Origin: Nitrososphaera sp.
Lineage (GTDB): Archaea; Thermoproteota; Nitrososphaeria; Nitrososphaerales; Nitrososphaeraceae
Direction of reading: 5' to 3'
DNA: 56,703 nt
Assembly: GCA_039938515.1 (NCBI GenBank)
Contig: JBDUUL010000016.1
Location: forward strand, 1 to 56,703
Positions within the stretch are counted from its first letter, which is position 1, and every line of letters starts with the position of its first letter. A program made the translations under genes and the position numbers. Below are positions 19,678 through 53,344 of the stretch, one piece after another. The notes under the pieces were generated by a model. That model was given only the letters and a program-made list of their open reading frames with translations, did not search any database and had not been told where the DNA came from.

Positions 19678-21828
19678 TTAACCTCCTTGGCGCTGTTTTA
19701 GCTGATCCTTTATCTTTTTCGCAACCGCTGGTCCTATCTTGTCGATGGCAGCTATTTTGGATTCTGAACTCTTTGCGAGTTTGCTCACGTCAGTATATCC
19801 GGCCCTGAAAAGCGCACGGGCTCGAACTCTTCCCACCTCTTCAAGCGATACCAGGGGCAAAAGTTCTTCACCGACACCGTACCTGATTCGCGTTCGGAGG
19901 TTCCCAATCTCTCCGAGTAAATCCTCGCGACCGCTGATTTTTGCCACTTCATAAAGGGCGGAGGACAGCCACCTGCTGACTTCGACTATCCTATGAAGGT
20001 CTCCCGGCTCAATGCCAGTCGATTCGCCAATAGCCGCTTCGCTGGCCTCGTCGAGCCACTGGGCAAGCGCCCAAAAACTCCTTGACGACTCATATTCGCT
20101 TAATGAATAAAACAGTTCGGTGCCTTTCGATTCAAGCAGCTGTGATACCATCTCGTAGTCTTTTTTCCTCAGGGCAAGTTTCGGATAAAAATCGCTGCAA
20201 TTGGAGATAAGGTGCAGAAATCCGAGAGTGTGCCTGTCACCATTGTTGCGGGGTAGTCGATCCAGAGCTTCCCTGAAATTGACTGCCGTCAGGGGGTCGA
20301 TGTAAAGCTGGGAAACTCTTTTGCCAAACTCGGTTGCGATGAACCTCTGGTTTCGCAAAAGTATCAAGCGCTCTTTTTCCAAGAATTCAAGAGCGCCGGA
20401 AAGTTTGAACTCAATGACGGAACTGCTACTCTGCTGCGCCAGGAGGGTCTTGGAGAAAAAACCGAGGATCTCGCCGTGCTTTAAGCCAGGATCTGAGGCA
20501 ATAGTAGACAGTAAGTGGAATCGTACGGCTTTTTCGCTTGAAAGCCTAGACTTTAGCGGCTCCGGCTCCCCCAGGACATAGTGATCGTACAGCTCGTCGG
20601 CACTTATTCCGCTTTGCTCCGAGACGATTATCGACTCGCCAAAAGTATCGTATTTCGGCCTGCCAGCCCTGCCGGAGAGCTGCTTGTATTCAAGGACGCT
20701 GATTGGTGTGCTTCCCCCGTACTCGGAGTCGTATCGCAGCACGCTTGCCAGAACCACTCGCCTAGCTGGAAGATTCACGCCTGCTGCCAGGGTCGGCGTC
20801 GCGGTCAAGAGCCGGACCGTGCCTGACTTGAATGCATCTTCGATCAGCTGTCTGCTATGCTGCCCGAGTCCGGCGTGATGAAATCCTACGCCCTTTCTCG
20901 CAAGTTCGGAAAGAACCTTGGTGGTTTCCGTCCCCTCGTCAGTGCGCAATATTTTCGATGAAAGCTCCCCAGCTGCTTTGCGTCCCTCATCTGACATGCT
21001 GGCAAAGACCGCATCGGAAGCCTTTACCGCGATAGAGACTGCCCTTTTTCGTGTCTCGGCAAATATGAGTGCCTGGCCGCCATCGCTTAGGGATTGCAGA
21101 GCGACGTCGATGGCTGCAGCCGCGCCGGATCTCGGAACGCGAATCGTTCTCGCTCCCTTTCCATCGTTTGTTCTTATTGAATCGTAATCGAAAACACCCT
21201 CTATCAGTTTTGTCGGGCGCCACTTGCTTTCGACAGGCTTGCAGCCCAGCCAATCAGCAATCTCGGAGCTATTTGCCACTGTCGCTGACAGAGCGATCAG
21301 CTGCGCTTGGGGGTATCTCTCGCGTATCCGAGTCAGCATCATTTCCAGAGTGGGACCGCGTTCCCTGTCTGAAATAAGATGTACCTCGTCCGAGATGAAC
21401 AGGCCAACCTGGCCCAGCCACTCAGCGCCATGGCGGAATAATGAATCCATCTTTTCGTTCGTTATCACGATAACGTCGGCTCCGGCAAGTTCCCTGCCGG
21501 TGGAGTCGTAGTCCCCTGTAGAAACTGCGGTTCTGATGCGTCCCGTGTCCCCGAGTAGGTCTTCAAGCCTTCGGAGCTCTTCAAATTTCTCAGAAGCCAG
21601 GGCCCGCAGAGGCGTAAGGTACACGCACTTTTGACGCTTTGCTAGGACGCTTGCGATAGCAAGCATTGCGACAAGTGTTTTGCCGCTGGCAGTAGGGGTG
21701 GTCAGGAGAACGTTCTGGCCAGTCATGACGCCAGCGTCGATCGCCGCTTTTTGCGGAGGGTAGAACGAATCATAGCCCAGCAGTTTGAGGAGGCGGCTAG
21801 CAAGAAGCTCAAGATGATTGGAAGACAT
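19678..21828 (-). CDS. hel308: Hel308-type Ski2-like DNA helicase
   Basis: This 716-residue superfamily-2 helicase acts at stalled replication forks. Walker A TPTASGKT is at residues 44-51, preceded by the Q-motif (YDSFYPPQKAAI). TPLRALASEKFEE is motif Ia, DEVHL is motif II, ALSATVANS is motif III, and QLSGRAGRPKYD is motif VI. The ratchet domain follows. A helix-hairpin-helix pair (LEEVGRVRARALFRAGY and IDKIGPAVAKKI) closes the protein. The open frame extends to 21930, but MSSNHLEL at 21828 matches the family N-terminus and has a TATA-like CAATAAAG about 45 bases upstream. It forms its own transcription unit. Confidence 0.9.
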   Translation of the reverse strand: MSSNHLELLASRLLKLLGYDSFYPPQKAAIDAGVMTGQNVLLTTPTASGKTLVAMLAIASVLAKRQKCVYLTPLRALASEKFEELRRLEDLLGDTGRIRTAVSTGDYDSTGRELAGADVIVITNEKMDSLFRHGAEWLGQVGLFISDEVHLISDRERGPTLEMMLTRIRERYPQAQLIALSATVANSSEIADWLGCKPVESKWRPTKLIEGVFDYDSIRTNDGKGARTIRVPRSGAAAAIDVALQSLSDGGQALIFAETRKRAVSIAVKASDAVFASMSDEGRKAAGELSSKILRTDEGTETTKVLSELARKGVGFHHAGLGQHSRQLIEDAFKSGTVRLLTATPTLAAGVNLPARRVVLASVLRYDSEYGGSTPISVLEYKQLSGRAGRPKYDTFGESIIVSEQSGISADELYDHYVLGEPEPLKSRLSSEKAVRFHLLSTIASDPGLKHGEILGFFSKTLLAQQSSSSVIEFKLSGALEFLEKERLILLRNQRFIATEFGKRVSQLYIDPLTAVNFREALDRLPRNNGDRHTLGFLHLISNCSDFYPKLALRKKDYEMVSQLLESKGTELFYSLSEYESSRSFWALAQWLDEASEAAIGESTGIEPGDLHRIVEVSRWLSSALYEVAKISGREDLLGEIGNLRTRIRYGVGEELLPLVSLEEVGRVRARALFRAGYTDVSKLAKSSESKIAAIDKIGPAVAKKIKDQLKQRQGG

Positions 21829-22004
21829 TGCGGGTAGAGAGGGTTCATGACACGCTAGCGCGGGCTTTATTGCTTTGCGTTTCAGCAAGCATGCATCAGT
21901 CCGTGTCGGAGGGCGAGCGCTGATGTCCATCCTGCCGTCATCTAGGTGTTTTTGGTGCCTTTATGCAAACGAGCCTATGATTTTCGCCGTCCACAGAATT
22001 CTCA

Positions 22005-23188: not shown

Positions 23189-25270
23189 CTAGGCTTTGGC
23201 CCAGTACCCAGACCTTCTTTCATAAATCTGGCCCTCCCTGTTTGCCTTTTCAATATACTTCTTGGCGTCGTTGTCATCACTAAACTTGCCGCTCTTTACA
23301 AGCTCTGAGATTAGGGATTTTTCTTCAACATCATTGTTATCGCTTCCGGCAAGCCCTTTGAAGATGTCCATGAAGACCTTTGACTTGGAGACTTCGCTTA
23401 TTGGCTTTCCATACAGCACTCCCATGTCCGTCTTGCCGGTATTCACGTCTACGCCCGCGGTCTTAAGCATCTGGTCTACCAGAAACAGGGCGCGTCGCGC
23501 GTCTTCCTCATCGACCAGGTCCTTGAGCAAAAGCCTCGCCCGAGCGGTTGCAAGCCTTACGAGTCCCTCGAGCTGCCTCGGGGTTACAGTAATCATGCCC
23601 TCCGTCTCAACTTTTCGCATGTTCATGTAGTATTCCCTGATGAGATCTGTGGCTTCCTGCGTCAGCGCTGGTTCACGCTGCCGGGCATAAGAGAGGTACT
23701 TGCTGAACAAGTCAATGTCGATAGGTGGCCTTGCAGCGCGCTCAGAATCCTTGTGAATCTGAAGAATGTGGCTGGCTATCAGGCCGTCCTTTTCCTTGTC
23801 GGGGGTGTCTCGAACAATAAAGATCAGGTCAAAGCGAGTGAGAAGCGGTATCGGCAGGTTGACGTTTTCTGTAATGTTCTTGTATGCATCGTATTTGCCG
23901 TACATGGGGTTGGCTGCCGCTAGGATAGATGTTCTGGCGTTCAGAGTTGCGACTATTCCTCCCTTGGCGACTGAACAGGTCTGCTGTTCCATCACTTCGT
24001 GAAGCGCGGAGCGGTCCTCTGGCTTTATCTTGTCAAATTCGTCGATGCAGCAGAGCCCCTGGTCCCCCAGGACAACCGCGCCGGCTTCGAGCATGAAAAT
24101 GCCAGACTTGTCCCGGATTACGGCGGCAGTAAGCCCGGCGGCGGTAGAGCCACGGCCTGAAGTGTATAGTCCCCGGGGGGCGATTTTGGCGGCAAACTTG
24201 AGCATTTCAGACTTGGCCACACCTGGGTCGCCAACAAGCAACAGGTTAAGGTCACCCCTCCTCGAGGTCCCGTCGGCCAGCTTTTTTGCTACAGAGCCTA
24301 CAATCAGCAGCAGGATGGCTTCCTTCAAGATCTCGTGACCGTAGATATGCGGTGCAAAGGACCCGACCAGTTTTTCATAGGCATCGGGCTTGCTGGCGAT
24401 TGTTACTATTTGCTTTTCGTCCTCAGGGCTTATTGCTAGCCTGTCAACTGTTCTTGAATCCTTGTTGCCTGCCCTGCCTCCCAGGTACTCGATGTTGTTG
24501 CCCTCCATTCTCAGCCTGAAAAGGCTGGATCGGATCTGGGGGCCTACAGCTTCCTGTTCGATTCTTACAACCCCTGTGAGGATTATCCGGTCCCCTGGCC
24601 TGCACCTGTCCACCAGGTCAGCCATGACAGTGACCTCAACGTAATGTGGAAGCTGGCCAGCGGGAAGATCTTCGGGCAGCTCCTGCAGGCGCACCATCTG
24701 AAAATCTATGAACACGCTTGCTTCCGGATCGAGGTCCAGATCCTTCTCGCCGCACTCGGGACATTTGGTCGGCTTTTTCGCAACTAGTTTTCGCAGTTCC
24801 TCGGTTACCGTGACCCTGTCGCAGTTGAAGCACCGGTAGGCAACCCTCTTGGCAAGTGGCTTGACTTCCGAAGAGCGGACAACCATTCCGGAGACGCTTA
24901 CCATTTTGTCGATTACTTCTGCGTTTATCTCCCTCAGCCCCTTGGATACAGTATAGTTTCCTATGCGGACTGCGACATGATCGTGGACCTCTTTTTCATA
25001 ATCCGGATGAATCTCAGCCAGTATCGAAAGGACCGCGGTGTTGAAAGCCTGCAGCATGCTATCCGGCTCGTGCGTCATCCTCTTGGCAAGATCGGGGTTG
25101 AAGGTATCGAAGTCCAGGTAATCGACCGTGAGTGCAGGAGTGCCCATTGCCATCATGTTGTTCACCCTGTCAAAGTACTTGTACGAGCCATCACGGTCCC
25201 TAAAGCTTGTCAGAAAAGTCTTCAGGTCATCGACAATCGCGGCCCCGGTCTGCTGTTGCTGCTCAGCCAA
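23189..25270 (-). CDS. mcm: Replicative helicase MCM
   Basis: This 693-residue minichromosome maintenance helicase forms the hexameric motor of the archaeal replisome. The N-terminal domain has a zinc site, CFNCD and KCPECG, near residues 150-180. The AAA+ core carries Walker A VGDPGVAKSEM (about residues 342-352), Walker B CCIDEFDKI and the arginine finger LTRFDLIF. A winged helix ends the protein (SELVKSGKFSDDNDAKKYIEKA). The TTG at 25270 overlaps the stop of the GINS gene by eight bases, so the two replisome proteins are translated from one message. Confidence 0.97.
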   Translation of the reverse strand: MAEQQQQTGAAIVDDLKTFLTSFRDRDGSYKYFDRVNNMMAMGTPALTVDYLDFDTFNPDLAKRMTHEPDSMLQAFNTAVLSILAEIHPDYEKEVHDHVAVRIGNYTVSKGLREINAEVIDKMVSVSGMVVRSSEVKPLAKRVAYRCFNCDRVTVTEELRKLVAKKPTKCPECGEKDLDLDPEASVFIDFQMVRLQELPEDLPAGQLPHYVEVTVMADLVDRCRPGDRIILTGVVRIEQEAVGPQIRSSLFRLRMEGNNIEYLGGRAGNKDSRTVDRLAISPEDEKQIVTIASKPDAYEKLVGSFAPHIYGHEILKEAILLLIVGSVAKKLADGTSRRGDLNLLLVGDPGVAKSEMLKFAAKIAPRGLYTSGRGSTAAGLTAAVIRDKSGIFMLEAGAVVLGDQGLCCIDEFDKIKPEDRSALHEVMEQQTCSVAKGGIVATLNARTSILAAANPMYGKYDAYKNITENVNLPIPLLTRFDLIFIVRDTPDKEKDGLIASHILQIHKDSERAARPPIDIDLFSKYLSYARQREPALTQEATDLIREYYMNMRKVETEGMITVTPRQLEGLVRLATARARLLLKDLVDEEDARRALFLVDQMLKTAGVDVNTGKTDMGVLYGKPISEVSKSKVFMDIFKGLAGSDNNDVEEKSLISELVKSGKFSDDNDAKKYIEKANREGQIYERRSGYWAKA

Positions 25271-25799
25271 CTTTTTTCAAGACCTCTTTCTTAAACTGGA
25301 CCGCTGCGCCGTGGACCCGAAGATATAGCTCGCGCTCTTCTGCCGCCAGCTTGGAGTTAAGTTCGGCAGAAAGTGGCGTAGCTGCGGCAAGCTTTACAAT
25401 TTTTTCAAGCCTCGATGCCACAAATGTATTGAGGGCGACGGACAGGTTCTCCTTTTCTCTCTCGCGCAATCCCGCAAAATAGTCGCTTACACGGATGTAA
25501 AAGTCGATATCCAACCCAGAGAGGTCATGCGGTCTTGAAATCCGCTCGCGGTTTAACGCTCGCGACACATATGCAGCAACCTCGGTTGGCTGAATTTCAA
25601 TTGCGCCCTGCTCAAGAAGGACGTTGGCAAGCCATCGGGGGAGAGATGACATGTCGCCCTCGCGGGCGTCAAGAGTCACATCCCCAACAGTAACTTTGAC
25701 GTCTCTCTTGTAAGATATCCTCACCTCCTCGTTAAGGTAGCCTATGCCATAAGCTTCCTGGATGTCGCGGATGCGAGAATCAGACGGACTGTCTGCCAT
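25263..25799 (-). CDS. GINS complex subunit
   Basis: This 178-residue replication protein links MCM and Cdc45/RecJ in the CMG-like helicase. The layout of a beta domain (VRISYKRDVKVTVGDVTLDAREGDMSSLPRWLANVL in separate parts) followed by an alpha domain (DIDFYIRVSDYFAGLREREKEN) fits the GINS fold. Here the order is beta then alpha, as in Sld5/Psf1-type archaeal Gins51-like proteins. The exact paralogue is not certain. It lies directly upstream of mcm with an eight-base overlap, the usual archaeal arrangement. ATG at 25799 is used. Confidence 0.85.
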   Translation of the reverse strand: MADSPSDSRIRDIQEAYGIGYLNEEVRISYKRDVKVTVGDVTLDAREGDMSSLPRWLANVLLEQGAIEIQPTEVAAYVSRALNRERISRPHDLSGLDIDFYIRVSDYFAGLREREKENLSVALNTFVASRLEKIVKLAAATPLSAELNSKLAAEERELYLRVHGAAVQFKKEVLKKVG

Positions 25800-25939
25800 G
25801 GCGGCTGGTGCTGCATAGACTTTCCGGCAGTTATATCTTATCCCAAGGACGTCAGGGGATATATCCTAACCCGGCGTATGCCCTGGAGCCAGGAGCAATG
25901 TATTAATTGATTTTTGAGAGACGTAAATGCACCGATACC

Positions 25940-26968
25940 ATGTCACGCAACGATAGAAAGGAGGAAAAATCTGCAGACCAGGCCTCAGATTTGCTCGTCT
26001 CTCGCCTCATGTGGTCTGAAAAATACAGGCCACATGCTCTCGAGCAGATAGTCAACCAGAAAGAGATCATAAAGAGTATATCGAACCTGATGAAGACGCC
26101 TGACCTGCCGCACATGCTGTTCGCAGGGCCCGCAGGAGTCGGCAAGACAACTGCTGCAATTTGCATCGCCAAGGAACTGCTTGGTCCCAACTGGGAGAGC
26201 AACACGCTTCTGCTGAACGCGTCTGACGAGCGCGGAATTAAGATGGTCCGAGAGCGGGTGAAAGGTTTTGCCGCATGGTCGTCGCCCACAGGCGACGAAG
26301 CCGTTAGAAGGCTCTTCAAGTTCATAATCCTTGACGAAGCCGACGAGATGACTTTTGATGCTCAGACTGCCCTTCGCACCATTATCGAGCAGAGCGCCGC
26401 GAACACCCGATTCATAATTATCTGCAATTATCTATCCCAAATTATCGAGCCTTTGCAGAGCCGGTGTGTGGTCTTCCGGTTCTCCCGGCTTTCAAAGAAC
26501 GATGTTGTTGATCATATCAGGCAGATTTGCGAGAAAGAGGCCGTAAAGTTTGAGGAAAAAGCGTTGGCGCAGATCTATGAATCAACGGGAGGCGACCTCA
26601 GGCATTCCATTAACATACTCCAGGCCGCTGCAGGCATGGGAAGTGTGAGTCTTGATAATGTCAGCTCCGCAGTAGGGCTTTCAGGCAAGTCGAAGGTCTC
26701 CGACGTGCTGAAGCTTGCCCTGTCGGGCAAGTTTACCGAGGCTCGCATCAAGTTATTGGAACTTACTCAGGTATACGGGATGTCGGAGACTGACTTTATG
26801 AAGTATGCCAACCAGGAAGCGTATGATCTGAAACTGGACAGGCCTGACGAGTTCGCGTCGCTCATGGCAGAGTATGACTACAGATTAACGGCAGGCGCGC
26901 ACCCGGACATACAGCTGACGTCTCTGCTGGCACAGCTGGGCAAACTAGGCAGGAAGGAAAAGGGCTAA
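25940..26968 (+). CDS. rfcS: Replication factor C small subunit
   Basis: This 342-residue AAA+ clamp-loader subunit loads PCNA onto DNA with RFC-L. From ATG at 25940 there is an N-terminal extension of about 22 charged residues, then MWSEKYRP and Walker A GPAGVGKT (residues 63-70). LDEADEM is Walker B, and LQSRCVVFRF supplies the SRC motif. The collar domain closes the protein. An open frame starts at 25907, but TATTAATT at about 25900-25907 would be its promoter, so the ATG is preferred. It diverges from the gins-mcm pair, forming a replication cluster. Confidence 0.95.
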   Translation: MSRNDRKEEKSADQASDLLVSRLMWSEKYRPHALEQIVNQKEIIKSISNLMKTPDLPHMLFAGPAGVGKTTAAICIAKELLGPNWESNTLLLNASDERGIKMVRERVKGFAAWSSPTGDEAVRRLFKFIILDEADEMTFDAQTALRTIIEQSAANTRFIIICNYLSQIIEPLQSRCVVFRFSRLSKNDVVDHIRQICEKEAVKFEEKALAQIYESTGGDLRHSINILQAAAGMGSVSLDNVSSAVGLSGKSKVSDVLKLALSGKFTEARIKLLELTQVYGMSETDFMKYANQEAYDLKLDRPDEFASLMAEYDYRLTAGAHPDIQLTSLLAQLGKLGRKEKG

Positions 26969-37884: not shown

Positions 37885-37978
37885 GGCCTTCGTAGTATAG
37901 CCTGGTTAGTATAGGCGGCTGTGGACAAGTCAAACCGGCAGTCACCGCTCGAGGAGGGTTCAAATCCCTCCGAAGGCC
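37885..37978 (+). tRNA. tRNA-His (anticodon GTG) with 19-base intron
   Basis: The extra G at 37885 pairs with discriminator C37978, the identity mark of tRNA-His. Acceptor arms GCCTTCG and CGAAGGC pair perfectly, the T arm is GAGGG-TTCAAAT-CCCTC, and the anticodon stem is GGCGG with CCGCT. The anticodon GTG is at 37921-37923. The intron at 37925-37943 follows G37. The splicing signal is clear: CTGT (37919-37922) pairs with GCAG (37938-37941), with bulges GG|A and TC|A. The 3' CCA is not encoded. Confidence 0.95.
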
Positions 37979-38019
37979 CTGTTTTTAATTCGAGAAGATT
38001 AGACTGAGGTAAGGAAAAT

Positions 38020-48592: not shown

Positions 48593-48605
48593 CGATTCTC
48601 AATAA

Positions 48606-48617
48606 TTAAATAATATT
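48606..48617 (+). promoter_or_regulatory. TATA box of the rfcL operon
   Basis: TTAAATAATATT lies 20-31 bases before the ATG at 48637, which predicts a leaderless message. Confidence 0.6.
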
Positions 48618-48636: not shown

Positions 48637-49770
48637 ATGAGCGGCAAGGACAAGTCGGTGTTCTCAAAGGAGGCTCTGATGAGCACTCAGTCAGGGAAGG
48701 ACATTCTAAAGCAGGGCCTGCTTCGCAGCAAGGGCTACAAGCAATTCAACCAGTACAAGGAGAAGACTGAGCGCGAATTCGGCGCCTTTTCGTCGCGCTT
48801 TGCTTTGTCGCTGCACAAGCTAATTGAAAGCGACGCATCCGTTTCCAAGACAATGGACAACTTTGCGTCAGAGGTCGGGTCTGCTCTTCTTGTTCCCCGC
48901 GAGAGCGAATATGTCGCCCTCAGGGAGCGACTTTCGTCACTCCCGGTGCTGCAGGACAGGGTTGCGAGGATACTAGATTCAAACTTTGTTAAAATGACAT
49001 TTCCGGTTTTCCACGCCCTTTTTGACTCGTCCGCTGCGTTCTTTGGCGATTCCGTCGCAGAGGATAAGAAAAACGCGGTGATCGATGGCCACATTATTGC
49101 CATCGACCTGTCCGAGCCGATGGACCGAATTGTCGACCGCGACGAGGACCTGGAATACCTGGAAGAATACAAGTTCATGTGCCCGTACATACTCGCGCTG
49201 GCAAGGGAGAAAATCGCAATCGGCGGTGACAGGGTACTTGCGGCATTTGAGGAAGGCTTCAAGGACGCTCGAAAAGGCCAGGCAATAGATGTCGGCCTCA
49301 AGCAGCGACCCCTGAGCATATCTGACGAGAAGATGGCAGATTGCTACAAAAAATACAGGGCAGTCATGGGCACGGCTGGCCGGAACATGGCGCTTGATAG
49401 GAGGCCACTTGGCGACATCTTTTACCTAGGAATGGCCAAAGCTGCAGAGTCCGTCGGTTGCGGAAACGAGATAGAGGATGCCATAAAGAACGGGTACGTG
49501 AAGATTCCATCATGGCCGCTTTATTTTGCTCTGAACTCTAACGATGTCAAGAGGGGCTTTGAGTTGTGCATGCAAAAGGCCGACCTGTACCTGCAGGAGG
49601 CAAAGCTTGCGCTTGACATGCTGCCGGAAAAATTTGAATACCGGCCGTTCTTGGAGTTTCTGTTTCTCACGGTGAGGCACTACAACGAATACTGGTATCT
49701 CGAGCTTTTGAGACGGTCACCGTTTAGGGAATTTAGGGAAAGAATCGAAGGGCTAGGGCAAATACATTGA
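48637..49770 (+). CDS. Conserved protein of unknown function in the rfcL operon
   Basis: This is a 377-residue, largely helical soluble protein. Residues 1-70 are basic and charged (SKEALMSTQSGKDILKQGLL, then KEKTEREFGAF). The core has LEEYKFMCPYILALAREKIAI, YKKYRAVMGTAGRNMALDRRP and the late YRPFLEFLFLTVRHYNEYWYLELLRRSPF in parts. There is no Walker motif, metal-Cys cluster or membrane segment, so it is not primase large subunit or another RFC subunit. It ends one base before rfcL. The position suggests a partner of clamp loading or replication. I do not recognise the family. Confidence 0.65.
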   Translation: MSGKDKSVFSKEALMSTQSGKDILKQGLLRSKGYKQFNQYKEKTEREFGAFSSRFALSLHKLIESDASVSKTMDNFASEVGSALLVPRESEYVALRERLSSLPVLQDRVARILDSNFVKMTFPVFHALFDSSAAFFGDSVAEDKKNAVIDGHIIAIDLSEPMDRIVDRDEDLEYLEEYKFMCPYILALAREKIAIGGDRVLAAFEEGFKDARKGQAIDVGLKQRPLSISDEKMADCYKKYRAVMGTAGRNMALDRRPLGDIFYLGMAKAAESVGCGNEIEDAIKNGYVKIPSWPLYFALNSNDVKRGFELCMQKADLYLQEAKLALDMLPEKFEYRPFLEFLFLTVRHYNEYWYLELLRRSPFREFRERIEGLGQIH

Positions 49771-49771
49771 C

Positions 49772-51037
49772 ATGATGTGGTCCGAAAAACATCGGCCAAG
49801 CAAAGTCGAACAAATGATTGGAAATGAGCAGGAAAGACTGGCAGCTGTACGCTGGATTGCGAGCTGGGCTAGAGGCACGAAGCCACTGCTGCTTGTCGGT
49901 CCTCCTGGCATCGGCAAGACCACCCTTGCAAGAATTCTGGCTGCGCAGTTTGATTATGACCTGGTTGACATGAATGCCAGCGACACGAGGAACAAGGCCT
50001 CGCTTCGGGAAAGGATACTTCCCGTGCTGTCAAATACGAGCAACCTTCTCGGCCGGCGGATACTGCTCTTCCTGGACGAGGTTGACGGAATCGCCGGAAG
50101 GGAGGATAGCGGAGGGCTTGAGGCTCTGACGGAGATGATGAAGGAGCCGACAGTGCCCGTAATAATGGCTGCAAACGAAAAGAGCGCGAAAATTAAGGAT
50201 CTTGCCAAGGTGTGCAAGACAATCGAGTTTTCACGGATTCCACCGCGCGAACTTCAGATGTTCTTGGATCATGTCCTAATAGTCGAGGGCAGGAGTCTGG
50301 GGCCGGGCGACAAGAGGGCGGCAATCACTACGAGCGGCGGGGATGTCCGGGCTCTTCTGAACAATGCACAGTCGAGGGCTGCCGGTTACGCCACCGGATC
50401 AAAAAGCGCCCCCGAGCTCGAGATTTCCCACGCCCTCAACAGATATTTTTCCTCCACTTCAAGGGAGGAAGCTATCGGCGCCTTTCTGGCCGCCGATGCA
50501 TCATACCCGGATCCCAGATTCGAAGGTATGAGCCCAGAACTTAGAAGAAAAGACATGATTGCGGCCCTTTTTTCAAGTATAGTATCCTCGCTAGCTAGCA
50601 GGGAGAAGGACCGAGATGGCAAAACTGACGATATGGCACCCATGCTGGACATCATTTCAAAGGCGGACATGGTGGTAGGCAGGGCCGGCAGCAACAGGGA
50701 ATGGGCATTGCTCAAGTACGTCGCCCCAATGCTCTCCCAGGGGCTGTACGAGCTTACGAGAAATAAAGGGATCAAGTATTCGCAGTATTCGCTCCCCTGG
50801 CCGTTGATGGGCCCGCTGTATGCGCGCGGCCAGACCACGAGGAAATTGGCAGCCGCGCTGGCGCCTGCCACCATCACCTCTAGGAGGACATGCAGCGCTG
50901 CAATGCTTCCCTATCTTCTGCAAATCCTTGCCAGGCATGAGCCAAAAGTTGACATAGAGCGCTTCGCGCTAGAGAACTTTGGCGACGAGTCGGTTGCAGA
51001 GTCGCTCGTGAAGGTCTTGGAGAGGAAATTGACATGA
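49772..51037 (+). CDS. rfcL: Replication factor C large subunit
   Basis: This 421-residue AAA+ large subunit of the clamp loader has Walker A GPPGIGKT at residues 43-50 and Walker B LFLDEVDG with Asp102-Glu103. The sensor region MAANEKSAKIK lies near residue 130. RFC-L opens PCNA at primer ends together with RFC-S, encoded at 25.9 kb in this window. It is shorter than euryarchaeal RFC-L and has no C-terminal PIP box that I can see. Its stop overlaps the next gene (ATGA). Confidence 0.95.
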   Translation: MMWSEKHRPSKVEQMIGNEQERLAAVRWIASWARGTKPLLLVGPPGIGKTTLARILAAQFDYDLVDMNASDTRNKASLRERILPVLSNTSNLLGRRILLFLDEVDGIAGREDSGGLEALTEMMKEPTVPVIMAANEKSAKIKDLAKVCKTIEFSRIPPRELQMFLDHVLIVEGRSLGPGDKRAAITTSGGDVRALLNNAQSRAAGYATGSKSAPELEISHALNRYFSSTSREEAIGAFLAADASYPDPRFEGMSPELRRKDMIAALFSSIVSSLASREKDRDGKTDDMAPMLDIISKADMVVGRAGSNREWALLKYVAPMLSQGLYELTRNKGIKYSQYSLPWPLMGPLYARGQTTRKLAAALAPATITSRRTCSAAMLPYLLQILARHEPKVDIERFALENFGDESVAESLVKVLERKLT

Positions 51038-51420
51038 GCGCATCTCCCAAAGACTGGCTCAAAATTCCGCTCAAGTTCCGCGGCAGGTGCTCGGCCTGTG
51101 GCCGCGAAATCCCGTCCGGCGAGGTTGCTTTGTGGTCCAAGGCTTCAAAGACGGTCAGGCATGTCTCCTGCGAGCCACCGCAATCCGCCAACGAAACTCC
51201 AATTCCCGAGGCCCCTGCACCGGTGATGGAGCTTGACTGCTTTATCTGCGGCAAGCCTTCGGGCTGCGGAAAATGCAGTCTGGCCCTTGACTGCGACAGG
51301 ACCATGGTGTCACAGGGGTGTATTTGCGAGGAATGCTTTGCCGGAGACGGAGATCCGTATATTGCCTATCAGCGCGAGTTTCTAAAGAAGGCAAGGAAGA
51401 TTCCAAAAGTTAAAATTTGA
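51034..51420 (+). CDS. Two-zinc-site protein in the rfcL operon
   Basis: This 128-residue protein has two cysteine-rich units. The first, GRCSACGREIPSGEVALW with a later VRHVSC, is a treble-clef-like zinc site. The second, CFICGKPSGCGKCSLALDC then CICEECF, has seven cysteines. The pattern CxxC...GE.A.W...VRH..C recalls small zinc domains attached to nucleases and repair proteins. The ATG overlaps the rfcL stop codon, so translation is coupled. Nucleic-acid or protein binding is inferred only from that pattern and from context. Confidence 0.65.
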   Translation: MSASPKDWLKIPLKFRGRCSACGREIPSGEVALWSKASKTVRHVSCEPPQSANETPIPEAPAPVMELDCFICGKPSGCGKCSLALDCDRTMVSQGCICEECFAGDGDPYIAYQREFLKKARKIPKVKI

Positions 51421-51441
51421 ACATGATGACCTGATGTCTGA

Positions 51442-51654
51442 ATGTCAAGCGACTACGAGCAGAACGTGGGAAAACTGCTGGCCGAAAAGAAGGCGGCGCT
51501 TGAAAAACTCCAAAGCGACCCTGTTCGCAACAGGCTTGAAATCGCATCGCTTACCACCGAAATCGAGACTCTTCAATCTCTTTACGAGAACTATAACCTG
51601 GGAATGAACGTTTTTCGCAGAGCGCAGGGCGGCCGAGCGGGCCTGCGAGAATAG
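51442..51654 (+). CDS. Small coiled-coil protein
   Basis: This is a 70-residue helical protein. Residues 5-50 have the heptad pattern of a coiled coil (VGKLLAEKKAALEKLQ, then NRLEIASLTTEIETLQSLY). The tail RRAQGGRAGLRE is basic. It begins 21 bases after the zinc-protein stop on the same strand and is probably the last gene of the 48637-51654 operon. It could be a dimerisation partner of the zinc protein or of the unknown first gene. The family is not recognised. Confidence 0.55.
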   Translation: MSSDYEQNVGKLLAEKKAALEKLQSDPVRNRLEIASLTTEIETLQSLYENYNLGMNVFRRAQGGRAGLRE

Positions 51655-51802: not shown

Positions 51803-53344
51803 ATGCATGAGGATAAAATCAAGCGACTTGCTACTTTAAAAAAATCTGCCGAAGGCGGAGGGGGAAAGGAACGGGTTGAAGCCCAGCACTCTAAAGGCAA
51901 ACTGACGGCAAGGGAAAGGATCAACCTGTTGCTTGATGAAAACTCGTTCATTGAAATTGACAAGTACGTCACGCACCGGAGCGACGACCCATCAGTTGGC
52001 AAGTCCTTCGGCGACGGCGCGGTAACAGGTTTTGGGACGGTCGGCGGACGGCAGATCTTTGTTTTTGCGTACGACTTTACCGTCCTTGGAGGATCGCTCG
52101 GGGAAATGACTGGCAAAAAGATTGCGAAGGTAATGGATCATGCGACAAAAGTCGGCTGCCCGATTATTGGGATAATTGACTCTGGCGGGGCAAGGATACA
52201 GGAGGGCGTCCTCAGCCTCGACGGGTACGGCGACATTTTCTTTAGAAACACAATGGCTTCCGGCGTGATACCCCAGATTACCGCGAGCATCGGCCCATGT
52301 GCCGGCGGGGCCGTGTATTCGCCTGCAATGACTGACTTTGTTATAATGGTCGAAAACATTGGCCAGATGTTTGTCACTGGCCCGGAAGTCGTAAAGGAAG
52401 TCCTCAGCCAGGAAGTCTCCTTTGAAGAGCTGGGAGGCGCAAAGGCGCACGGATCCAAGTCAGGCGTTGCGCACTTTGTCGCCAAAAACGAGTATGAATG
52501 CATTGACAGGATAAAGAAGCTGATTTCATTCCTGCCCCAGAATAACACAGAAGAGCCGGCCATCATTGAAACGGGTGACGACCCCAACAGAATAGACGCC
52601 AAACTGGTTGACATCCTTCCAGAGAACCCCTACCAGCAGTACGACATGAAGGAGATCATAAAGTCAATAGTGGACAACGGCGACTTTTTCGAGGTCCACG
52701 AGCTTTTTGCCGAAAACATAGTGGTCGGGTTTGCAAGAATGGCCGGCAGGACCGTAGGAATAGTCGCGAACCAGCCCATGTACCTTGCAGGCGCACTTGA
52801 CATCAACTCGTCCAACAAGGCTTCAAGATTCATACGCTTTTGCGACGCGTTCAACATCCCGATAGTCACGCTAGTTGACACGCCAGGCTATCTGCCAGGC
52901 ACCGAACAGGAGCACAACGGCATTATCAGGCACGGAAGCAAACTTTTGTTCGCCTACTGCGAAGCGACAGTGCCAAAGATAACCTGCATTGTAGGCAAGG
53001 CTTACGGGGGGGCTTACATCGCCATGGGAAGCAAGAACCTGAGAGCGGATATTAACTACGCATGGCCCACTGCAGAGATTGCCGTGCTCGGACCGGAAGC
53101 AGCCATCACCATAATACACAGGAAGGACCTGAAAGGCTCGCCGGATGCTGTGGCAACAAAGAAGAAGCTGGCCAAAGAATACAGGGACAAGTTTGCAAAC
53201 CCATACATCGCAGCCGAAAAGGGGACAATCGACGTTGTGATCGACCCCGCAGAGACCAGGCCGATGATAATCAGGGCTCTCGAAGCACTTGCGAACAAGC
53301 GTGAGGCCCGGCCATGGAAAAAGCACGGGAACATCAACCTCTAA
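51803..53344 (+). CDS. pccB: Acetyl/propionyl-CoA carboxylase carboxyltransferase subunit
   Basis: This is a 513-residue carboxyltransferase. Two crotonase-like halves carry the carboxyltransferase signatures: GGSLGEMTGKKIAKVMDHA, CAGGAVYSPAMTDF and GPEVVKEVLSQEVSFEELGG in the first half, and VDTPGYLPGTEQEHNGIIRHG and AYGGAYIAMGSK in the second. With the next two genes it forms a biotin-dependent enzyme that carboxylates acetyl-CoA and propionyl-CoA. That enzyme is the entry point of the hydroxypropionate/hydroxybutyrate carbon cycle in ammonia-oxidising archaea. The substrate range is inferred from that knowledge. Confidence 0.94.
   Translation: MHEDKIKRLATLKKSAEGGGGKERVEAQHSKGKLTARERINLLLDENSFIEIDKYVTHRSDDPSVGKSFGDGAVTGFGTVGGRQIFVFAYDFTVLGGSLGEMTGKKIAKVMDHATKVGCPIIGIIDSGGARIQEGVLSLDGYGDIFFRNTMASGVIPQITASIGPCAGGAVYSPAMTDFVIMVENIGQMFVTGPEVVKEVLSQEVSFEELGGAKAHGSKSGVAHFVAKNEYECIDRIKKLISFLPQNNTEEPAIIETGDDPNRIDAKLVDILPENPYQQYDMKEIIKSIVDNGDFFEVHELFAENIVVGFARMAGRTVGIVANQPMYLAGALDINSSNKASRFIRFCDAFNIPIVTLVDTPGYLPGTEQEHNGIIRHGSKLLFAYCEATVPKITCIVGKAYGGAYIAMGSKNLRADINYAWPTAEIAVLGPEAAITIIHRKDLKGSPDAVATKKKLAKEYRDKFANPYIAAEKGTIDVVIDPAETRPMIIRALEALANKREARPWKKHGNINL

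Follow-up and report, generated by a model that had tools for sequence, protein, structure and literature searches.

A candidate replacement for the second ether-bond enzyme of membrane lipids, encoded beside the clamp-loader gene of ammonia-oxidizing archaea

The four-gene locus

We analysed a stretch of 56,703 nt from Nitrososphaera sp. (contig JBDUUL010000016.1 of assembly GCA_039938515.1; hereafter 'the window'), in which four genes follow each other closely on the forward strand: P1, the gene of the replication factor C large subunit (RFC-L), P3 and P4 (Table 1). The window genome (G000) is that of an ammonia-oxidizing archaeon (AOA) of the Nitrososphaera type; amoA is present and the closest named loci belong to Nitrososphaera metagenome-assembled genomes. 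Our principal result concerns P1, a strong candidate for the enzyme that took the place of digeranylgeranylglyceryl phosphate (DGGGP) synthase in AOA; RFC-L and P3 form a unit of their own.

P1 and RFC-L are separated by a single base, RFC-L and P3 share a 4-base ATGA overlap, and P3 and P4 lie 21 bases apart. The four genes, with the coordinates, strand and spacings given for them in an initial annotation of this DNA, were all reproduced from the open frames. The same annotation placed a single TATA box ahead of the operon. We found one TATA-like run 5′ of P1, the 17-base A/T run AATAATTAAATAATATT, which lies ∼20–36 bases 5′ of P1 (its first base is 36 bases before the start codon); the 56.7 kb contain 17 A/T runs of at least 10 bases. 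The gene after P4 begins at 51803; a separate TTTATAT at −35 of that gene makes it plausible that the P1-RFC-L-P3-P4 transcription unit stops at P4.

Table 1. Features of the locus (positions in the window)
Feature	Coordinates	Strand	Basis
AT-rich TATA-box-like run	48601-48617	+	sequence match only
P1	48637-49770	+	377-residue open frame
P1 S159-E160-P-M-D163, position of first Asp-rich motif (DDxxD)	49111-49125	+	invariant in 90/90 P1 sequences
P1 G214-Q215-x-x-D218 and K239, counterparts of GQ and KT motifs	49276-49353	+	spacing
P1 N277-E278-I-E-D281, position of second Asp-rich motif (FQxxDD)	49465-49479	+	spacing; phmmer/hhalign register
RFC-L, replication factor C large subunit (AAA+)	49772-51037	+	421-residue open frame; NCBIfam RFC-L models E 2e-63; Pfam AAA 1.2e-15
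P3, putative metal protein: N-terminal zinc-ribbon-like site, outer zinc ribbon, inner four-cysteine site	51034-51420	+	128-residue open frame; cysteine/histidine pattern
P4, coiled-coil protein with conserved tail ENYNLGMNVFRRAQGGRAGLRE	51442-51654	+	70-residue open frame; AOA conservation; neighbourhood link only

Conservation of gene order

P1 stands immediately 5′ of RFC-L in all 88 loci holding both genes, and RFC-L stands immediately 5′ of P3 in 104 of 106 loci (some genomes are counted twice in these figures). For both gene pairs the most frequent spacing is a 4-base overlap. The P1-RFC-L-P3 arrangement is not due to chance. A contig labelled as Chitinophagaceae bacterium (L096) also holds an AOA P1-RFC-L-P3 locus, at 61% identity; it is almost certainly mis-binned.

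The operon of four genes is not universal, as RFC-L and P3 have been relocated, separately, in several genera of Nitrososphaeraceae. After their departure P1 remains behind the gene of ribosomal protein S7 and P4 remains before carboxylase genes; therefore RFC-L and P3 make up one unit and P1 a second, and P4 belongs with neither. The four genes do not form one replication module. Scattering of the genes in relatives, which the initial annotation had named as evidence against its own proposal of an undescribed replication or repair module, is seen for the set of four and is not seen for RFC-L with P3. What survives of that proposal is P3, which adjoins RFC-L in two classes and in one genome shares an open frame with it as a fusion; P1 falls outside by its predicted isoprenoid-chain-synthase fold and its place in a former lipid-gene slot, and P4 by having no fixed partner.

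It is very improbable that P1, P3 and P4 are all accessory parts of a clamp loader or repair module working with RFC-L. Such a role would suit the tight packing and translational coupling of the genes, as well as the linkage and fusion of P3. Against it, P1 has the predicted fold of a lipid enzyme, keeps its place at the S7 end where RFC-L and P3 have relocated and is missing wherever RFC-L does without it, and P4 lacks a tie to RFC-L.

The slot upstream of RFC-L

The second ether bond of archaeal lipids is commonly made by a DGGGP synthase (DGGGPS) of the UbiA family. In Nitrososphaeria other than AOA, the gene directly 5′ of RFC-L encodes a UbiA prenyltransferase that is nearest to geranylgeranylglycerol-phosphate geranylgeranyltransferase, i.e. 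DGGGPS; it scores below the curated cut-offs and is strictly to be called 'DGGGPS-like'. This gene precedes RFC-L directly in most of 14 non-AOA order-mates, and it abuts RFC-L, often with a 4-base overlap, in 17 of 20 additional non-AOA genomes from several families (in the other three RFC-L lies outside the stretch examined). A tRNA-intron endonuclease gene precedes the UbiA gene in four non-AOA relatives (L053, L051, L049 and L045; confirmed by Pfam in L051), giving a conserved non-AOA neighbourhood of EndA, DGGGPS, RFC-L and P3.

P1 was found in 217 of the 300 genomes of the class, covering 34 of 69 genera, and amoA occurs in exactly these 34 genera of the class sample. P1 was detected in none of the 250-odd other genomes sampled from the phylum. 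The DGGGPS-like UbiA orthologue is present in 68 of the 300 class genomes (31 genera), none of which is an AOA and none of which carries P1. Searches of AOA genomes gave no DGGGPS-like UbiA orthologue; a single-sequence search yields remote paralogues only. The complete genome G032, of Nitrosopumilaceae type, has no more than three UbiA genes: two encode heme O synthases, with scores over the curated cut-off, and the third is MenA-like. P1 itself has no UbiA match in Pfam or NCBIfam. Comparison of the slots thus indicates that an ancestral order of DGGGPS, RFC-L and P3 became P1, RFC-L and P3 in AOA. The window genome, like most of its relatives, has two canonical prenyl synthases besides P1; therefore P1 is an addition to them and not their substitute.

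Predicted fold and motifs of P1

P1 matches no Pfam family at E-values up to 10 and no NCBIfam model, and PDB sequence searches with P1, P3 and P4, together with the Pfam and NCBIfam searches, gave nothing usable. We built an AlphaFold2 model of P1 from its alignment with 24 relatives (25 related sequences). The model is all-helical, with a predicted local distance difference test score (pLDDT) of 91.4 and a predicted template-modelling score of 0.88. In a Foldseek search of the PDB with this model, all of the top 50 matches were trans-isoprenyl diphosphate synthases (probability 1.00), heteromeric prenyl synthases among them; the E-values are modest (6e-4 to 8e-3), with template-modelling scores of ∼0.5–0.6 of the target. 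P1 is thus predicted to have the trans-isoprenyl diphosphate synthase fold.

A phmmer search with the single P1 sequence reported a geranyltranstransferase at a non-significant E-value of 0.068, and the likewise non-significant hhalign alignment of P1 with prenyl synthases has the same register. In this register His152 lies 7 residues ahead of the first motif, as in canonical enzymes. The distance from G214 to K239 is 25 residues (25–26 in the canonical enzymes of the same organisms) and that from K239 to D281 is 42 (41–42 in the same enzymes). All of 90 P1 sequences share His152, SExxD at 159–163, G214-Q215-x-x-D218, K239 and D281. K239, the counterpart of the KT lysine, is kept at canonical spacing; the Thr is absent, and so are the Arg residues of GGKRxRP. 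Judged by the defining motifs of PF00348, P1 would stand outside that family, and it may still work like a PF00348 enzyme with a different acceptor.

The likeness to prenyl synthases might also be a coincidence, P1 being simply an all-helical protein with a function unrelated to isoprenoids. We consider this unlikely. Sequence comparison alone is non-significant and the model was built on 25 related sequences, both of which leave room for such a coincidence, but the fold matches all belong to one superfamily, phmmer, hhalign and motif spacing give one register, and the slot of P1 is that of a prenyltransferase gene.

P1 as a candidate DGGGP synthase

The second-ether-bond step of AOA has been an acknowledged gap since 2014–2019: DGGGPS was not identifiable in Thaumarchaeota (PMC4244643, citing Villanueva 2014), and with no orthologue there, a paralogue or another, unrelated enzyme was suggested to serve (PMC6431249). 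DGGGPS is expected to have its chemistry in common with soluble prenyltransferases (PMC9385802). We found no paper proposing a candidate for the AOA replacement (subscription papers were outside the search) and no paper naming Nmar_0267-0271.

We propose the following. An isoprenoid-lipid gene would have had its slot ahead of an old RFC-L and P3 gene pair; in non-AOA Nitrososphaeria this slot is occupied by the UbiA-type DGGGP synthase, which would have been swapped in place for P1 in the AOA ancestor. P1 would most likely have the isoprenyl-diphosphate-synthase fold and act as a prenyltransferase, soluble or peripheral, that binds geranylgeranyl diphosphate (GGPP) between helices D and H via E160/D163 and E278/D281 with Mg2+. 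It would ionise GGPP, the free hydroxyl of geranylgeranylglyceryl phosphate (GGGP) would attack, and transfer of the C20 chain would give DGGGP, with the second ether bond of crenarchaeol-type membranes. This explanation as a whole, the old gene pair with its lipid-gene slot and the displacement of UbiA DGGGPS by a prenyltransferase making DGGGP, comes close to being probable in our judgement. That P1 is the missing AOA enzyme, a DGGGP synthase of a type unrelated to UbiA that replaced the common enzyme inside its operon as AOA arose, we put forward tentatively, as quite possible.

Several observations count against the proposal. At least two genomes of AOA families, G076 and G167, have no P1 match, possibly owing to assembly gaps. 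(G076 also has no P3 match, suggesting an assembly gap at the locus.) The switch between UbiA and P1 happened once in evolution, which makes the complementary distribution a single data point. Neither Pfam nor hhalign gave significant sequence similarity of P1 to prenyl synthases, and the profile–profile score of hhalign does not exceed that of column-shuffled controls. On a template of 20 motif residues P1 scores 9, which is reached by 1% of shuffles and by 6% of control open reading frames. On a template of 11 anchors it scores 10, and of 5000 shuffles none scored 9 or more; these anchors were chosen after P1 had been seen. Proof of kinship by sequence was set aside for these reasons: hhalign is at the shuffled level, the unbiased template is weak and the favourable one is post hoc. 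The first Asp-rich motif of P1 is SExxD and not DDxxD, and the second is DAxxN (N277-E278-x-x-D281-A282), with one Asp at canonical spacing and no FQ ahead of it; catalysis by P1 is therefore uncertain. The DGGGP step could, moreover, be carried out by a UbiA paralogue instead (PMC6431249).

The alternative that we take most seriously, and regard as somewhat doubtful, is that P1 has the isoprenoid-synthase fold and does another AOA-specific job, either as a partner subunit that sets the chain length of a canonical prenyl synthase or in the formation of the cyclohexane ring of crenarchaeol, while a UbiA paralogue, such as one of the two heme-O-synthase-like proteins, makes the second ether bond. 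Degenerate Asp motifs occur in non-catalytic subunits of heteromeric prenyl synthases; both Asp motifs of P1 are degenerate, heteromeric synthases are among its fold matches, and two canonical synthases accompany it in the window genome. The cyclohexyl ring of crenarchaeol, a lipid specific to AOA, is made by an unknown enzyme (PMC12909067), which suits the AOA-specific P1, and use of a UbiA paralogue for the DGGGP step has been proposed (PMC6431249). However, this alternative leaves the position of P1 in the DGGGPS slot unexplained. Two strong UbiA matches of the kind that in AOA are heme O synthases (not classified individually) were also found in several non-AOA genomes that keep DGGGPS (G027, G029, G033, G034 and G037), so having two copies does not seem to be peculiar to AOA. 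We rejected the crenarchaeol ring enzyme as the preferred role of P1 and kept it as a rival: the distribution fits, but ring closure has no obvious need for diphosphate ionisation, and the slot favours DGGGPS.

The DGGGP synthase proposal, resting as it does on one evolutionary event and a predicted fold, offers for the gap in AOA lipid synthesis a single named gene with a history of in-place replacement. If it is true, a core step in the synthesis of archaeal membranes has been taken over by a non-orthologous enzyme, which is a rare event. AOA rank with the most abundant of the archaea, and the TEX86 palaeothermometer is based on their membrane lipids.

RFC-L and its companion P3

RFC-L is an ordinary clamp-loader subunit. 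Its translation contains Walker A (GPPGIGKT) and Walker B (LFLDEVDG) motifs, and its best model match scores 214.5 bits, under the curated cut-off of 280. No PCNA-interacting-protein (PIP) box was seen in the translated C-terminal tail, ...VAESLVKVLERKLT, or in the RFC-L tails of the sampled relatives. Genes for an MCM helicase, a GINS-like protein and the RFC small subunit (RFC-S) are grouped at 23189-26968, ∼23 kb upstream of RFC-L, and a Hel308-type helicase is encoded at 19678-21930; all of these names except that of the RFC small subunit come from reading the translations.

P3 had been described as a protein with two zinc sites; its ligands fit three instead (C19/C22/H43/C46, C69/C72/C98/C101 and C78/C81/C87/C96). 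In the C-terminal part an outer zinc-ribbon set encloses an inner C-x2-C-x5-C-x8-C set. Both sets are complete in 100 of 111 P3 sequences. The other 11, spread over about seven lineages, retain the outer four cysteines but none of the inner four, and no partial set occurs. Such all-or-none loss is as expected of a single removable metal site, and the inner cysteines probably form such a site, for Fe-S or Zn.

Older-type P3 proteins (those of non-AOA and of AOA families f2 and f3) have, according to a structure model, an N-terminal beta-alpha-beta-beta-alpha-beta domain, in place of which P3 of Nitrososphaeraceae and Nitrosopumilaceae has a CxxC...HxxC ribbon. The model of one older-form P3 (L039; pLDDT 93) found no fold relative in the PDB (best E-value 1.6). 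In a sister class P3 directly follows RFC-L in 17 of 17 genomes, in an operon of RFC-S, RFC-L and P3. Genome G028 has an older-type P3 fused to the N-terminus of RFC-L in one 550-residue frame (L053:4465-6117). At the C-terminus of P3 from one relative (L196) stands a PIP-like QGTLDLFG. Constant genetic linkage in two classes and one fusion support P3 as a genuine companion of RFC-L, and so a conserved, previously unnamed archaeal clamp-loader companion with a putative removable four-cysteine site. Recoding at the in-frame TAG of some sister-class P3 matches (L187, L188, L189 and L200) was considered and rejected; the TAG is an ordinary stop at the gene end.

P4 and a tRNA gene

P4 occurs in AOA, and two further genomes gave weak matches. 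Where the genes separated, it went with the neighbouring carboxylase in six cases (G010, L083, L091, L131, L140 and L076) and stayed by P3 in five (L077, L086, L089, L106 and L134). In Nitrosopumilus and Nitrosarchaeum a longer form lies ∼3–4 kb upstream of P1 (L120:4976-5653 and L112:5069-5836; 225–255 residues, with an N-terminal extension rich in Ala, Glu and Lys), and P4 of L112 adjoins the glutamyl-tRNA reductase gene; in Nitrosopumilus P4 stands apart. With such mixed neighbours, which are evidence for neither, P4 was rejected as a partner of the carboxylase or of RFC-L. It is a loosely linked AOA protein, tied neither to RFC-L nor to any one partner.

Elsewhere in the window, at 37886-37979, ARAGORN predicts a tRNA whose anticodon, gtgg, is oddly four bases long; the gene may contain an intron or be an unusual tRNA gene.

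Comparison with known systems

RFC-L is like other archaeal RFC large subunits in its AAA+ core, in having RFC-L models as best matches and in its clamp-loader gene context; it differs in its sub-cut-off scores, in the lack of a C-terminal PIP box and in its pairing with P3. The inner site of P3 in relatives has the spacing C-x2-C-x-Y-x3-C, which we take to resemble the Cas4/AddB-type iron-sulphur motif; unlike those proteins P3 has no nuclease domain, and its site would be set inside a zinc ribbon.

With the trans-isoprenyl diphosphate synthases of PF00348 (FPPS, GGPPS and polyprenyl synthases) P1 shares the predicted all-helical fold, the order and spacing of GQxxD, Lys and the second-motif Asp, and the His 7 residues before the first motif. 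It differs from them in having no family match, SExxD for DDxxD, one Asp in the second motif and no Arg residues of GGKRxRP. With the UbiA DGGGP synthase P1 shares the operon slot 5′ of RFC-L and, as proposed, the reaction, and the two are complementary in distribution; UbiA is an integral membrane family, whereas P1 has no UbiA match and another predicted fold. MoeN5 of moenomycin biosynthesis belongs to a bacterial natural-product pathway and carries out C-C head-to-middle coupling with geranyl diphosphate, not ether formation. It has a trans-prenyl-synthase-like fold and acts on a prenylated phosphoglycolipid as acceptor (PMC7839719), which makes it a precedent for the role suggested here for P1.

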